A stretch of 64,000 nt of DNA from Yersinia entomophaga (GTDB lineage: Bacteria; Pseudomonadota; Gammaproteobacteria; Enterobacterales; Enterobacteriaceae): assembly GCF_001656035.1 (NCBI RefSeq), contig NZ_CP010029.1, positions 1,724,288 through 1,788,287 on the forward strand, written 5' to 3'. Positions 44,780-50,300 of the stretch are shown here, piece after piece. The translations under genes were made by a program, and so were the position numbers. A model generated the notes under the pieces. That model saw only the letters and a program-made list of their open reading frames with translations. It made no database searches and was not told the DNA's origin. Position 1 is the first letter of the stretch. Each line of letters begins with the position of its first letter.

Positions 44780-45751
44780 TTATTCACCGATAAAACGTAA
44801 GTTCCAATTAAATACGCTGTAGTTAAACATGTAGCGTATGGCGACATACGTAATAATCAGGGTAGCGACGACAGCCTCAAAGGTAGCCAGATAATAAAGT
44901 TGGTAGCTGTAATCTTGTACTAATTCATACTTGCTCACCAAATCCGCTAATTTATATAACGCTGTCGCACCAATTGCCATTGGGAAGGTAAACGCAGCAT
45001 AACCCGGGCTAAACGGCAATTTTAGTAAACGGAAGAATGACATGTAAATTACGCAAGTCATTAATATCGCAATACCGAACAGTAATGCACATACCAGTAA
45101 AGAAGGATTTGGCACTACGGTTAAATAACCTGCCAAACTAAGGCTCGCAGGAGCAGCCATAATCGCAATGGTTGGCTTCGCTGCATCCGGAACTTCGCGG
45201 CAGAACATAAAACGATAGATCATCAGCGGCAGCATACATGCGTAACTCAACATACCGATGACTAACAATAAATACGCAACACCCATAAAGGCCTGATTAG
45301 GCACCGCAACGTCAGCCACAATAATCCCAACGGGCGGAACAAACCAACTCGGCACCATATGATGCATTTCTATTTCTTGGATCCGATGATAAATAAATAC
45401 CGCAAGAAAAATCAGGTGCACTACTACCGCCAGTGACCACAAGATCTCACCCGCCAACATACTCAAATTGCCCAAGGCTTTGGAAACCACCATACACCCC
45501 ATGGTAAAGGTAGGAACCACGCTACCCACCACAGGATGTTTTAAATCTGATAATAAAACTCTGAAGTGAAAAATAAATTTACTGGCTACGGCAAGTAGCA
45601 GCACCGATGCGATTATCGCCCCGATATTTTGACCTAAACCGTTTAAGGGTAATGCATTTTCCAGGCACCAACCTATACTTGAAATACCCAGTGCCAGACC
45701 GGCGATAGGCGTCGGTAATCCTCTGATTTTACTATGTATAATTTCTAACAT
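44780..45751 (-). CDS. TDT-family (TehA/SLAC1-like) transporter
   Basis: Integral membrane protein of the tellurite-resistance/dicarboxylate transporter family. About ten hydrophobic helices fill the 323 aa; the start LPTPIAGLALGISSIGWCLE and later FVPPVGIIVADVAV and FSPGYAAFTFPMAIGATAL are typical of this fold, with five helical hairpins around a central pore. Known members move small anions (TehA, SLAC1), malate (Mae1) or sulfite (Ssu1). The substrate here is not evident. It is divergent from a LysR gene that probably controls it. Confidence 0.85.
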   Translation of the reverse strand: MLEIIHSKIRGLPTPIAGLALGISSIGWCLENALPLNGLGQNIGAIIASVLLLAVASKFIFHFRVLLSDLKHPVVGSVVPTFTMGCMVVSKALGNLSMLAGEILWSLAVVVHLIFLAVFIYHRIQEIEMHHMVPSWFVPPVGIIVADVAVPNQAFMGVAYLLLVIGMLSYACMLPLMIYRFMFCREVPDAAKPTIAIMAAPASLSLAGYLTVVPNPSLLVCALLFGIAILMTCVIYMSFFRLLKLPFSPGYAAFTFPMAIGATALYKLADLVSKYELVQDYSYQLYYLATFEAVVATLIITYVAIRYMFNYSVFNWNLRFIGE

Positions 45752-45860
45752 GTTACCGCCAAAAGCATAATCTACATAAATGAATAGGGCAAATATAGAT
45801 ACTCACCTTTGTTTAGGATATCCTTTTTTTATTGACTTAGCGTTTAGAAGAAATAAACAA

Positions 45861-46775
45861 ATGGATATCACGTTGAAGCAATTGAAAGTTTTCCTAGCGG
45901 TAGCGCAAAGCGGCAATTTAACGGTCGCAGCCTCCCAATTGTTTATGACGAAAGGAGCTGTCTCTCAAACCTTGGCTGAGTTAGAAAAACGTCTGGGCCA
46001 AACCCTATTCGATCGTCACCACGCTCGTATATTTATTAATCCGGAGGGGGAAAAATTAATCTCAGTGGCTGATGAGCTGCTTTCAAGAATGAAAGACATC
46101 AATACATTATTTTCCGACAGCGCCAGCGTTCACAATTTATTTTTGGGTTGTAGTAAAACCATTGGCAGCTATATTTTGCCTGCACTTTTAGGTGAGTTTA
46201 GAAATAGCTATAACTGGTTGCCTAAAATAGCTATTGAAAACACTAACGATATTCTGAGTAAGTTACTCAAATTTGAAGTAGATTTGGCTATTCTTGAGGG
46301 AAATATCAATAATAAAGATATCTTGTCTACCCCATGGTTAACAGATGAAATGGTCGTTATCGCAACCAAAGATCACCCTCTCGCATACGAAAAATCAGTC
46401 CCGTTCTCAGTATTGAGTCAGCAGTCATGGATATTGCGTGAGCAAGGTTCGGGTAGCCGCAGTTATTTTGAAAATCATCTGGCACCATTGTTATTGCAGC
46501 CGAAGGTCATTTTATCTTTGGATACTTTCGATTCAATTTTATTTTCTGTTCAACAAAATTTGGGAATCACCTACGCTTCCCGGCTTATCATCCAAAATCC
46601 TTTTTTTCACGACCATTTCTCAGTAATCAAAACAGAAACCCGTTTTTTCCGCTCGATAAGCCTCTGCCACCATCGACAAAAATATCTATCTAATGGTGCT
46701 CAACAGTGGATCAATTTTCTGATTCATGCAGGTAAACGACTTGAGTTTGCACGAAATAATCAGATAGAGAATTGA
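45861..46775 (+). CDS. LysR-family transcriptional regulator, YeiE-like
   Basis: LysR-type regulator of 304 aa from the ATG at 45861 (MDITLKQLKVFLAVAQ). The winged helix-turn-helix is at about residues 18-41 (NLTVAASQLFMTKGAVSQTLAELE); the effector domain begins near 90. The end, CHHRQKYLSNGAQQWINFL, and ILREQGSGSR resemble E. coli YeiE, which responds to sulfite. Divergence from the TDT transporter across 109 bp is the usual layout of a LysR protein and its target. Base composition is more AT-rich than the flanking backbone. The frame is open to 45780, but without homology. Confidence 0.85.
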   Translation: MDITLKQLKVFLAVAQSGNLTVAASQLFMTKGAVSQTLAELEKRLGQTLFDRHHARIFINPEGEKLISVADELLSRMKDINTLFSDSASVHNLFLGCSKTIGSYILPALLGEFRNSYNWLPKIAIENTNDILSKLLKFEVDLAILEGNINNKDILSTPWLTDEMVVIATKDHPLAYEKSVPFSVLSQQSWILREQGSGSRSYFENHLAPLLLQPKVILSLDTFDSILFSVQQNLGITYASRLIIQNPFFHDHFSVIKTETRFFRSISLCHHRQKYLSNGAQQWINFLIHAGKRLEFARNNQIEN

Positions 46776-47413: not shown

Positions 47414-49423
47414 ATGTTCGTAGATCAAGACACATCGATCCTGGACACTTACTTTGGCACCCATAGCCCCTATTGGCGCTTGGCTTTTGATAGCCAAGCC
47501 TTGGAACTCTCCGCCGTAAAAGGCACGACCAATATTGCCGTTCCTCTTGATTCACTTCAAACAGCGAAAGTCCGCGCACTGACAGCCATTACTTCCAGCC
47601 TGGAAATCAGTATTTCTATCTATGGCAATCCAGTTCATTTGCATCTGGTAGGACGAAAAATTAATGACAAGGAATGGGGAGGAACAGCTTCAGCATATTC
47701 AGATACTGAAGCTGTCGCGCGCGATCTGGTGATGGGATTGTCCTTTGCCGAACAAGTCGTTTCCGAAGCTAACTCGGTTATTGTCATTCTGGATAAAAAT
47801 GGCTCCGTACAACGCTTTAATCGTTTGAGTGAAGAATACACTGGCAAAAAAGAACAAGACGTCATCGGTAAGAATGTTTTTGAATTATTTATGACACAGA
47901 AAGAAGGCGCATCCTCGCGTAAAAACATTGAAGGTTTTTTTAAAAGAGGTGCTTCTTATGAAGTGGAACGCTGGGTTAACACGGTAAAAGGAAAACGCCT
48001 GTTTCTTTTTCGTAATAAATTCGTGCACAGCGGCAGCGGTAAAAACGAACTTTATTTAATCTGCTCAGGTACAGATATTACTAAAGAGAGACGAGCACAG
48101 GAACGCCTGCGTGTGCTGGCGAATACCGATATGATTACCGGTTTGCCTAACCGCCACGCTATTCATGAGCGAATCAACAGTGCGATTCAAACTCGCGGAG
48201 ACGACGCCGTAGGGATTATTTATCTTGATCTGGATAACTTCAAAAGAGTTAACGACCACTATGGCCATATGTTTGGCGATCGGCTGCTAAAAGATGTGTC
48301 ACTTTCGATATTGAGCTGCTTGAAAGAAGATGAAATGCTCGCCCGTTTGGGGGGAGATGAGTTTATCGTTCTTATTGAAGATACGACGCTTTCTGCCCTC
48401 GAAAATGCCGCCCAACGTATTCTCGACCAAATGCGAGCCCCCTTCCGTATCGGATTGATTGAAGTTTATACCGGATGTTCCATTGGGATTGCGTTATGCC
48501 CACAGCATGGCGAAACGCTGGAAAATATCATCCGCAGCGCGGATACCGCGATGTACACGGCAAAAGAACTTGGCAAACGGACTTATTCTGTCTTTTCTCC
48601 GGAAATGAATAAGAAAGTGTCTGAATACATTTGGCTGGATACCAATCTGCGTAAAGGCCTGGAACAACATCAGCTTGTCGTATTTTATCAGCCAAAAATC
48701 TCAACTCGAACCGGTAAAGTCCTCAGCGTAGAAGCATTAGTTCGCTGGCGATCAACCGAGCGGGGTTTAGTTCCACCGCAAGAGTTTATCTCATATGCGG
48801 AAGAATCCGGTTTGATTGCTCCTTTGGGTCAATGGGTATTACAAACGGCTATGCAGCAAGCCGTTGACTGGCAAAAGAAAGGCATAGATTTAAGAATTGC
48901 AGTCAATGTTTCAGCCCGCCAGTTGGTGAATGAAGCGATTATTACCAGCTTTATTAAATCGCTGGAAACCTGTGAATTGACCTCCAGCTTAGTTGATGTC
49001 GAATTAACAGAAAGCTGTCTGATTGATGATGAAAATGCAGCGATTAACATTATCAAAAAGCTCAAAGAATTGGGTGCTGAAGTCCATCTGGATGATTTTG
49101 GTACCGGCTATTCTTCACTTTCCCAGTTAGCACGTATTCCTATTGATGCAATTAAATTAGATCAGAGCTTTGTGCGCGGAATAGATAAAAATCAGGTCGC
49201 GCAGTCTTTAGTTAAGGCAATCTCCGTTGTCGCCGAAACGCTCCAAATGCGAGTTATTGCAGAAGGCGTTGAAACAATAGAGGAAGAGAATTTCCTAGAT
49301 TTGTTGAGCATAGATGAAAAGCAGGGATTTCTTTATGCCAAGCCAATGCCCGCAGAAGAACTGGAGCATTGGCTGAGCAAACATACCCCGCACTTTCCAA
49401 GTAATTTAACGGGAAAAACCTAA
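47414..49423 (+). CDS. rpfR: RpfR-type DSF receptor / c-di-GMP turnover protein (FI-PAS-GGDEF-EAL)
   Basis: Cytoplasmic signalling protein closely similar in whole-length order to E. coli PdeR (YciR). I chose the ATG at 47414 (MFVDQDTSILDTYFGT), with GGGG upstream; it aligns with the PdeR start and gives 669 aa. Domains: N-terminal domain (about 1-100) corresponding to the FI region that binds RpfF in relatives; PAS (about 108-225), which binds the fatty-acid signal; GGDEF (motif 313-317 intact, no RxxD inhibitory site before it); EAL (EAL 440-442, DDFGTGYSS 560-568, EGVE 617-620), apparently a competent phosphodiesterase. In Cronobacter and Burkholderia, DSF binding to the PAS domain raises c-di-GMP hydrolysis. 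It ends 1 bp from the end of rpfF. Confidence 0.92.
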   Translation: MFVDQDTSILDTYFGTHSPYWRLAFDSQALELSAVKGTTNIAVPLDSLQTAKVRALTAITSSLEISISIYGNPVHLHLVGRKINDKEWGGTASAYSDTEAVARDLVMGLSFAEQVVSEANSVIVILDKNGSVQRFNRLSEEYTGKKEQDVIGKNVFELFMTQKEGASSRKNIEGFFKRGASYEVERWVNTVKGKRLFLFRNKFVHSGSGKNELYLICSGTDITKERRAQERLRVLANTDMITGLPNRHAIHERINSAIQTRGDDAVGIIYLDLDNFKRVNDHYGHMFGDRLLKDVSLSILSCLKEDEMLARLGGDEFIVLIEDTTLSALENAAQRILDQMRAPFRIGLIEVYTGCSIGIALCPQHGETLENIIRSADTAMYTAKELGKRTYSVFSPEMNKKVSEYIWLDTNLRKGLEQHQLVVFYQPKISTRTGKVLSVEALVRWRSTERGLVPPQEFISYAEESGLIAPLGQWVLQTAMQQAVDWQKKGIDLRIAVNVSARQLVNEAIITSFIKSLETCELTSSLVDVELTESCLIDDENAAINIIKKLKELGAEVHLDDFGTGYSSLSQLARIPIDAIKLDQSFVRGIDKNQVAQSLVKAISVVAETLQMRVIAEGVETIEEENFLDLLSIDEKQGFLYAKPMPAEELEHWLSKHTPHFPSNLTGKT

Positions 49424-49424
49424 C

Positions 49425-50300
49425 CTAAATCGCTTTTGGCATGGTGGATGTACGCCGATCCTGTAGCATGACCAGGCGTTCAATATAAGCCAGATCTTTA
49501 GCTTCGATGGAGAAAACAGAGTCCACCCAATCTTCGGTTATATCCATCAATTCTGAACGCGTCAGCTGCAAAACGCGTTGGCGTGTTCGTATCATTGCGC
49601 GCATACCGTTTAATTTTGGTCGAATAGTATCAATGAAGGTGCGAGTAGCCATATAAGCATCCCCCGGCTGAAATAATTTATCCACCAATCCGCGACTTTC
49701 ATACCATTCTGCCGCATGTGATTCCCCGCTCCAGATAAGCTCCTCGGCAACACGCATACCGGCTTTTCTAGCCACCAGCGAGTATCCTCCCATGCCTGGG
49801 AACAGATTAAAGGCTATTTCCGGAAACCCCATTCGGGCAGTGGTCTGCGCTAAAACAAAGTGATGTGCCAGCGCAGCTTCAAAACCACCACCTAAAGCGC
49901 TACCTTCAATCATGGCGATTGAGATTGCTCCGGTATCAAACCCGCGGGAGGCGGAATGAACGCAATCCACGCAGGCTCTAGCGTAAGCCATTAATGTTTC
50001 ACGCTTGCGGTTTTTTATCATCTGAGCAAAGAAACTTAAATCACCTCCAACATTAAACATATGTGGAACAACCGAACCTGTAACCCAGAAGTCGATAGGC
50101 AGTTTTGACTCTTTTGCTGCCTGCGCCAGTGTCATAATATTTTCAATTAACTCAAGGTTAAAACACGGACGTGGATTCGCTCGTAACAGCATCCACATGG
50201 TATTTCGCTCTTCTTCATAATAAGCAGAGACTTGCGATAGATGCCCAGCTTCGGTAAATGGGCGGCAGCTTGGGAGATTAATCATTTTCATATATTCCAT
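49425..50300 (-). CDS. rpfF: RpfF-type DSF synthase (crotonase fold)
   Basis: Enoyl-CoA-hydratase-superfamily enzyme that dehydrates 3-hydroxyacyl-ACP and releases a cis-2-unsaturated fatty acid, the diffusible signal factor. In the 291-aa frame the two catalytic glutamates of RpfF are at Glu141 (EGSALGGGFEAAL) and Glu161 (GFPEIAFNLFPGMGGYS), the positions known for Xanthomonas RpfF. The oxyanion segment VGGDLSFF is intact. The exact start is uncertain: ATGs occur at codons 1, 4 and 6. It is tail-to-tail with its probable receptor gene rpfR. Homologue-based; chain length of the signal cannot be read from the sequence. Confidence 0.92.
   Translation of the reverse strand: MEYMKMINLPSCRPFTEAGHLSQVSAYYEEERNTMWMLLRANPRPCFNLELIENIMTLAQAAKESKLPIDFWVTGSVVPHMFNVGGDLSFFAQMIKNRKRETLMAYARACVDCVHSASRGFDTGAISIAMIEGSALGGGFEAALAHHFVLAQTTARMGFPEIAFNLFPGMGGYSLVARKAGMRVAEELIWSGESHAAEWYESRGLVDKLFQPGDAYMATRTFIDTIRPKLNGMRAMIRTRQRVLQLTRSELMDITEDWVDSVFSIEAKDLAYIERLVMLQDRRTSTMPKAI

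Follow-up and report, generated by a model that had tools for sequence, protein, structure and literature searches.

We examined a 64,000-nucleotide stretch of the Yersinia entomophaga chromosome (contig NZ_CP010029.1, positions 1,724,288 to 1,788,287; hereafter the window, with positions counted from its first letter) and found in it a convergent rpfR/rpfF gene pair that is very probably a standard RpfF/RpfR system, making and sensing a fatty-acid signal of the Burkholderia diffusible signal factor (BDSF) type. Comparison with other genomes leads us to favour, by a modest degree, a second reading: that RpfR proteins which outlived the synthase were repeatedly retuned, and that many rpfF-less RpfR, including Escherichia coli PdeR with its Leu187, are former receptors of diffusible signal factor (DSF) that kept their catalytic half to serve in different cyclic di-GMP (c-di-GMP) circuits. 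The features of the locus are as follows.

47414..49423, plus strand: rpfR (pdeR-type), 669 aa, FI-PAS-GGDEF-EAL, from the list of open reading frames, Pfam, NCBIfam and structure matches; a start at the upstream ATG 47339 (plus strand) would lengthen the frame to 694 aa
47423..47695, plus strand: FI (RpfF-interaction) domain, residues 4-94, from the 6dga/6dgn chain (E 3.4e-22)
47753..48082, plus strand: PAS domain, residues 114-223, with the BDSF-contact residues, from the 6dgg chain (E 6.5e-53)
48119..48577, plus strand: GGDEF domain, motif GGDEF intact (residue 313), from Pfam
48644..49345, plus strand: EAL domain, EAL (residue 440) and DDFGTG motifs intact, from Pfam
49421..49427, no strand assigned: tail-to-tail junction, with rpfR TAA, one base and rpfF TAG (CTA on the plus strand)
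49425..50300, minus strand: rpfF, 291 aa, predicted BDSF-type synthase; an alternative ATG at 50291 (minus strand) gives 288 aa and is where most homologues' matches begin
49878..49880, minus strand: codon of RpfF Glu141, presumed catalytic, aligned with Xanthomonas RpfF; Glu in 206 of 206 RpfF loci
49818..49820, minus strand: codon of RpfF Glu161, presumed catalytic; Glu in 203 and Asp in 3 of the 206 RpfF loci

An earlier note on this DNA, made from the letters alone, had called the minus-strand gene rpfF and pointed to Glu141 and Glu161. That call held, as solved RpfF proteins of the Burkholderia type match it over its full length with both Glu present: the RpfF of complex 6dgn scores 440.2 bits (E 2.4e-131) and 5fus 438.4 bits (E 8.9e-131), each over residues 6-287. 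The protein has the crotonase fold, scores above the cut-off of NCBIfam PRK08788, and is 97% identical to the RpfF of Yersinia nurmii. In the 291-aa numbering, Glu141 and Glu161 align with two Glu 20 residues apart in Xanthomonas RpfF (chain 3m6m, 155.6 bits), which we take to be the catalytic residues there. The NCBIfam model named SgnlFctrSynRpfF (NF053515) gave 183.7 bits against a cut-off of 550, and we therefore regard the window protein as belonging to an RpfR-associated subtype that lies outside this model.

The description of the plus-strand product as an FI-PAS-GGDEF-EAL protein with intact GGDEF and EAL motifs was likewise borne out. RpfR scores 1154.6 bits against NCBIfam PRK10060 (the PdeR equivalog, cut-off 782), Pfam finds its PAS, GGDEF and EAL domains, and the crystal structures of RpfR account for the FI domain (6dga, 6dgn) and the PAS domain (6dgg, 6dgj). 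The start at 47414 fits the homologues: counted from it, the fourth residue is the one that pairs with residue 4 in the FI chain. The protein had also been said to lack the RxxD inhibitory site, and at the position where we assume this site would lie the four residues are K-E-D-E. All five residues that contact BDSF are present in the window protein as S168, N171, Y182, R186 and N201, corresponding to Cronobacter S169, N172, Y183, R187 and N202 (the numbering used below), which contact the ligand in the published RpfR structure (PMC6361424). The same source reports that B. cenocepacia S168A, N171A, R186A and N201A each led to higher c-di-GMP. The gene pair and its defining features are not due to chance.

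If the pair works as its relatives do, RpfF would dehydrate and hydrolyse 3-hydroxyacyl-ACP to yield a BDSF-type cis-2-unsaturated fatty acid, the PAS domain of RpfR would bind this acid and thereby lead the EAL domain to lower c-di-GMP, and the FI domain would restrain RpfF. For Cronobacter and Burkholderia, synthesis, sensing, the lowering of c-di-GMP and the FI brake have all been reported (PMC6361424; PMC4698668). By analogy with these systems we infer that the window strain makes such an acid and senses it, that its FI domain acts as a brake and that c-di-GMP is the output, and the coupling of DSF to c-di-GMP that the earlier note had put forward would follow the same pattern.

The closest known counterparts are the RpfF/RpfR of Cronobacter turicensis and B. 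cenocepacia, which the window pair resembles in domain order and in catalytic and ligand residues, as well as in the convergent layout described in PMC6361424 and PMC4504480; it differs from them in its 1-bp gap and its site between yicC and yicG. Xanthomonas RpfF, the partner of RpfC/RpfG, is likewise a crotonase-fold synthase with two Glu. The window RpfF is nearer to the Burkholderia type by score and below the NCBIfam cut-off for RpfF, and the Xanthomonas receptor comes from another protein family (PMC4504480). Because earlier publications describe the pair, its convergent layout and its occurrence in Yersinia (PMC6361424, PMC4504480, PMC4698668 and PMC12838280), we consider the window pair a further member of a known system; it adds one more bacterium that is likely to use DSF signalling.

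Other genomes were surveyed for the two genes. Among 392 genomes sampled from the family (thresholds of E <= 1e-60 for rpfF and E <= 1e-30 for the FI-PAS half of rpfR), rpfF was present in 99 and FI-PAS in 140. None of the 99 had rpfF without FI-PAS, and one of them, G005, carries rpfF in two pieces; 41 of the 140 had rpfR without rpfF. In a phylum sample of 398 genomes, each of the 11 with a close RpfF (E <= 1e-130) also had RpfR, three more had RpfR alone, and none of the 52 with a more distant RpfF (E >= 1e-63, identity no higher than 43%) had RpfR. Across the sampled genomes, rpfF is strictly dependent on rpfR. The earlier note had proposed a search of related genomes and trees of both proteins, and these bear out a conserved pairing: distances between RpfF proteins correlate with those between RpfR proteins (r = 0.87 over 111 rows), and 65 of 106 splits are common to both trees.

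The receptors that lack a partner often differ from those that have one at the very residues that touch the ligand. The pair set comprised 184 loci, with some genomes counted twice and G005 with its broken rpfF included; in it S169, N172, R187 and N202 are invariant, Y183 is altered once, and the EAL motif reads ESL in three. Among the 41 rpfF-less receptors, S169 has become Ala in eight, the same substitution as B. cenocepacia S168A, and N172 is altered in 13, R187 in three and Y183 in three. At least one contact residue is changed in 24 of the 41, including the decayed copy of G076, and the catalytic motifs are nearly always kept (GGDEF in 39/41, EAL in 40/41).

We placed these changes on a tree built from the catalytic half only, with 111 receptors that have rpfF, 39 that do not and the E. 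coli K-12 protein. We excluded G076, as well as G247 because of its short length. Loss-only parsimony with a midpoint root gave about 12 losses of rpfF, and at least one altered receptor occurs in 9 of the 12 loss clades. The rpfF-less branches make up 20.5% of the tree length and carry all 13 contact-residue changes, with none on rpfF-bearing branches (binomial p 1e-9); when each genus contributes a single genome per status, the count is 12 of 12. Since Phe stands at position 183 in B. cenocepacia RpfR alongside rpfF, Y183 is not diagnostic, and when it is set aside the count becomes 11 of 11. The ratio of rates between rpfF-less and rpfF-bearing branches is 1.83 for FI and 2.00 for PAS, against 1.20 for GGDEF and 0.84 for EAL. 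Comparisons within genera (8 rpfF-less and 25 rpfF-bearing groups) agree, with FI relative to the catalytic half at 2.95 versus 2.12 (p 0.009) and PAS at 0.88 versus 0.47 (p 0.02), so that FI and PAS speed up together in the rpfF-less groups. We also considered erosion specific to FI relative to PAS after loss of rpfF and rejected it, the ratio of the two within genera being 3.82 in both classes (p 0.73). Taken together, these patterns suggest that the receptor can outlive the synthase and that its sensory domains then evolve faster and its BDSF contacts change while the catalytic half stays.

An alternative is that the changes in rpfF-less genomes represent general drift of the PAS domain, or lineage, and not loss of the signal. 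The doubling of rate across the entire PAS domain and the equal FI/PAS ratio are what such drift would give, and some further observations speak against retuning itself: all five contact residues are kept in 17 of the 41 rpfF-less receptors, residue 183 is Phe in two receptors that do have RpfF as a neighbour, those of B. cenocepacia (L339) and a relative (L327), and the well supported branches offer five independent pairs only, with which a sign test cannot reach 0.05. Yet the contact columns changed more often than the remaining PAS columns that show no variation among pairs (means of 2.6 and 0.73, permutation p 0.03; with one genome per genus, 2.4 and 0.55, p 0.014), and the catalytic domains barely accelerate. 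Burkholderiaceae-type pairs, moreover, keep the residues despite a lower PAS identity to the window protein (68.4% vs 73.1%). An independent case comes from outside the order, where the rpfF-less RpfR of G738 has Ile at S169 and Asp at N172; its family, f39, includes Burkholderia-like RpfF. We therefore judge general drift unlikely, if a serious contender, and retain the reading that orphan receptors were retuned. On that reading, the replacement of Arg187, together with the recurrent replacements of Ser169 and Asn172, leads us to predict that many rpfF-less RpfR, E. coli PdeR among them, do not bind BDSF and have lost DSF sensing. A link between loss of the synthase and change of the receptor pocket was not found in the literature searched, which did not extend to preprints or most subscription papers.

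The wider comparison bears on the question of what E. coli Gmr/PdeR senses, for which C12:0 has been speculated (PMC6361424). E. coli PdeR (also YciR or Gmr) belongs to the same family as the window RpfR, with 60.7% identity and intact GGDEF and EAL motifs. The earlier note had stated that E. coli keeps the receptor and has no rpfF; with regard to gene content this stands, since pdeR is present in 5372 of 5426 E. coli genomes and rpfF was not found there by blastn with a relative's rpfF (word size 11), and it needs the qualification that the retained receptor lacks Arg187. Leu occupies this position in all five E. coli PdeR read (K-12 and four strains across the identity range); the equivalent residue of B. 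cenocepacia is R186, whose replacement by Ala is one of the four that led to higher c-di-GMP. Of the three same-genus genomes nearest to E. coli, with PdeR 94% identical, two have Leu187 and one (G280) has Arg; because Arg187 is kept in G280, the E. coli change is young.

Two further observations concern the E. coli locus. In K-12, the small gene ymiD and the 3' end of pdeR share 19 bases in a tail-to-tail arrangement (L329, 1648-1776 and 1758-3743), ymiD standing where other species have rpfF. YmiD was considered as a remnant of rpfF and rejected, as the sequence past the end of K-12 pdeR gave no match even with relaxed search settings.

The kinship with PdeR raises the alternative that the window receptor is mainly a trigger enzyme, sensing c-di-GMP and acting by protein contacts as PdeR does, with DSF in a minor role. 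It draws on the PRK10060 equivalog match, on the local action of PdeR through DgcM and MlrA (PMC5635695) and on the finding that contact with BerB is another way in which RpfR of B. cenocepacia acts (PMC9684580). Against it, the window strain keeps rpfF and all five contact residues, and its genome yielded neither MlrA nor CsgD (E <= 1e-30), so that it differs from E. coli in the DgcM-MlrA-CsgD switch as well as in rpfF and residue 187. We consider this alternative quite improbable and prefer to regard the window pair as a standard BDSF-type system. CsgD was found in 29 of the 31 rpfF-less genomes tested (four at only 39-48% identity) and in 24 of the 46 pair genomes tested, and it was not found in six other Yersinia genomes tested (E <= 1e-30). 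This pattern, confounded by lineage, is in keeping with retention of the receptor for the DgcM-MlrA-CsgD switch. The window genome encodes two PilZ proteins, PilZ being the only family of c-di-GMP effectors searched.

The absence of a match to MlrA and CsgD also counts against the reading of the window pair that we prefer, as do several findings within Yersinia. Both rpfF and rpfR are missing from 2 of 24 other same-genus genomes, G006, in which contigs end near yicG and yicC, and G012, a single contig in which a ligB match was not found at E <= 1e-30. The two pieces of rpfF in G005 lie beside an intact rpfR (L291, 6591-7453), and rpfR is broken beside an intact rpfF in Yersinia pekkanenii (by an in-frame stop) and Yersinia massiliensis (in two pieces). 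The system is dispensable within the genus. A broken rpfR beside rpfF is seen in loci L029, L032, L112 and L122, from these two species and from two further genomes whose loci match theirs.

A further alternative is repeated gain of rpfF next to an older rpfR, the rpfF-less genomes never having had it. Gains and losses look alike in the change counts, the RpfR tree is rooted at its midpoint, and 41 of 106 RpfF splits are absent from that tree. Nevertheless, two rpfF-less genomes have rpfF-like fragments at the expected convergent place, G285 (L202; 64% over 22 residues, E 4e-4) and G076 (L181; 44% over 32 residues, E 0.001), and these point to loss in place. Repeated gain would also need the same insertion over and over to account for the shared convergent place of 99 pairs, and it sits poorly with the agreement of RpfF and RpfR distances; we hold it to be very unlikely.

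Transfer between Burkholderiaceae and Enterobacterales was examined as well. With distant outgroups the Enterobacterales form one clade at support 50/0, and the 77% identity of a Paraburkholderia RpfF is only suggestive of horizontal transfer. A plasmid search returned 11 records, with no Enterobacterales plasmid among them: six were distant relatives and five came from Burkholderia, of which one measured 25 kb and the other four were replicons of 2.4-3.5 Mb.

The earlier note had further reported that rpfR and rpfF converge 1 bp apart, and had ascribed to this gap a possible role in control through antisense read-through. The geometry is correct: both open reading frames are present, and the stop codons TAA (49421-49423) and TAG (49425-49427) flank the single base 49424. 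To place it among relatives, gaps were counted to the first in-frame stop of rpfR. In a scan of named species covering the best 80 of 318 loci, rpfR is convergent with and adjoins rpfF in all 80, and in the family sample the two converge on the same contig in 99 of 99 rpfF-bearing genomes. The 1-bp gap occurs solely in the window and in its two closest relatives, Y. nurmii and G011. Elsewhere in Yersinia it is 8-28 bp (11 of 12 named-species loci and 17 of 20 of the rest read), in Serratia 3-19 bp (16 loci), and in Burkholderiaceae-type loci 12-248 bp (41 loci). For 69 further family loci, the stop codons overlap by exactly four bases, sharing letters, in 29; 27 are spaced by 0-60 bp and 13 by more than 60 bp. 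Inserts of about 0.3-6 kb separate the genes in 8 of the 99 genomes, and the overall range runs from the 4-base overlap to 6.3 kb. In one genus, all five sampled genomes (G067, G212, G296, G362 and G418; loci L219, L238, L258, L270 and L281) have 1.4-6.3 kb between the convergent genes.

The pair has thus stayed closely convergent over time, but the 1-bp gap has not been conserved. The junction contains no terminator-like site, and such sites are no commoner than in shuffled sequence (4 vs 4.0); the sole Rfam match at gathering thresholds is a ClpQY promoter at 1825-1889, far from the junction. Transcripts may therefore overlap at the junction. That the 1-bp junction is itself regulatory has in its favour the universal convergence in these samples and the frequent 4-base overlap, yet with such variable spacing, the kilobase inserts, no terminator signal and another tight convergent pair in the window (yicG/ligB, 13 bp), we dismiss it as highly improbable; because spacing varies among relatives, there is no evidence for the gap as a conserved control device.

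With respect to the neighbourhood, the window pair lies between yicC and yicG on the chromosome. Y. nurmii shares the entire region between pyrE and spoT unchanged, and the order spoT-gmk-ligB-yicG-DUF3574-nupC-rpfF-rpfR is kept in five other named Yersinia loci that we laid out. Several genes here fall below the window mean of 48.8% G+C, namely those for the TDT transporter described below (43.1%), LysR (38.7%), RpfR (44.2%), RpfF (46.8%), NupC (42.6%) and DUF3574 (45.0%). Composition was considered as a sign of a foreign island and set aside as weak, given that yicG, ligB and gmk, at 46-47%, are below the mean too.

Between yicC and rpfR, at 44780-46775, the window carries genes for a transporter of the SLAC1/TDT type and, divergently, for a LysR regulator. 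In four of the five other Yersinia loci laid out, no LysR or SLAC1/TDT-family relative was seen over roughly 6 kb past rpfR, and the fifth (L023) ends too soon to judge. Y. nurmii has the same transporter and regulator in the same place.

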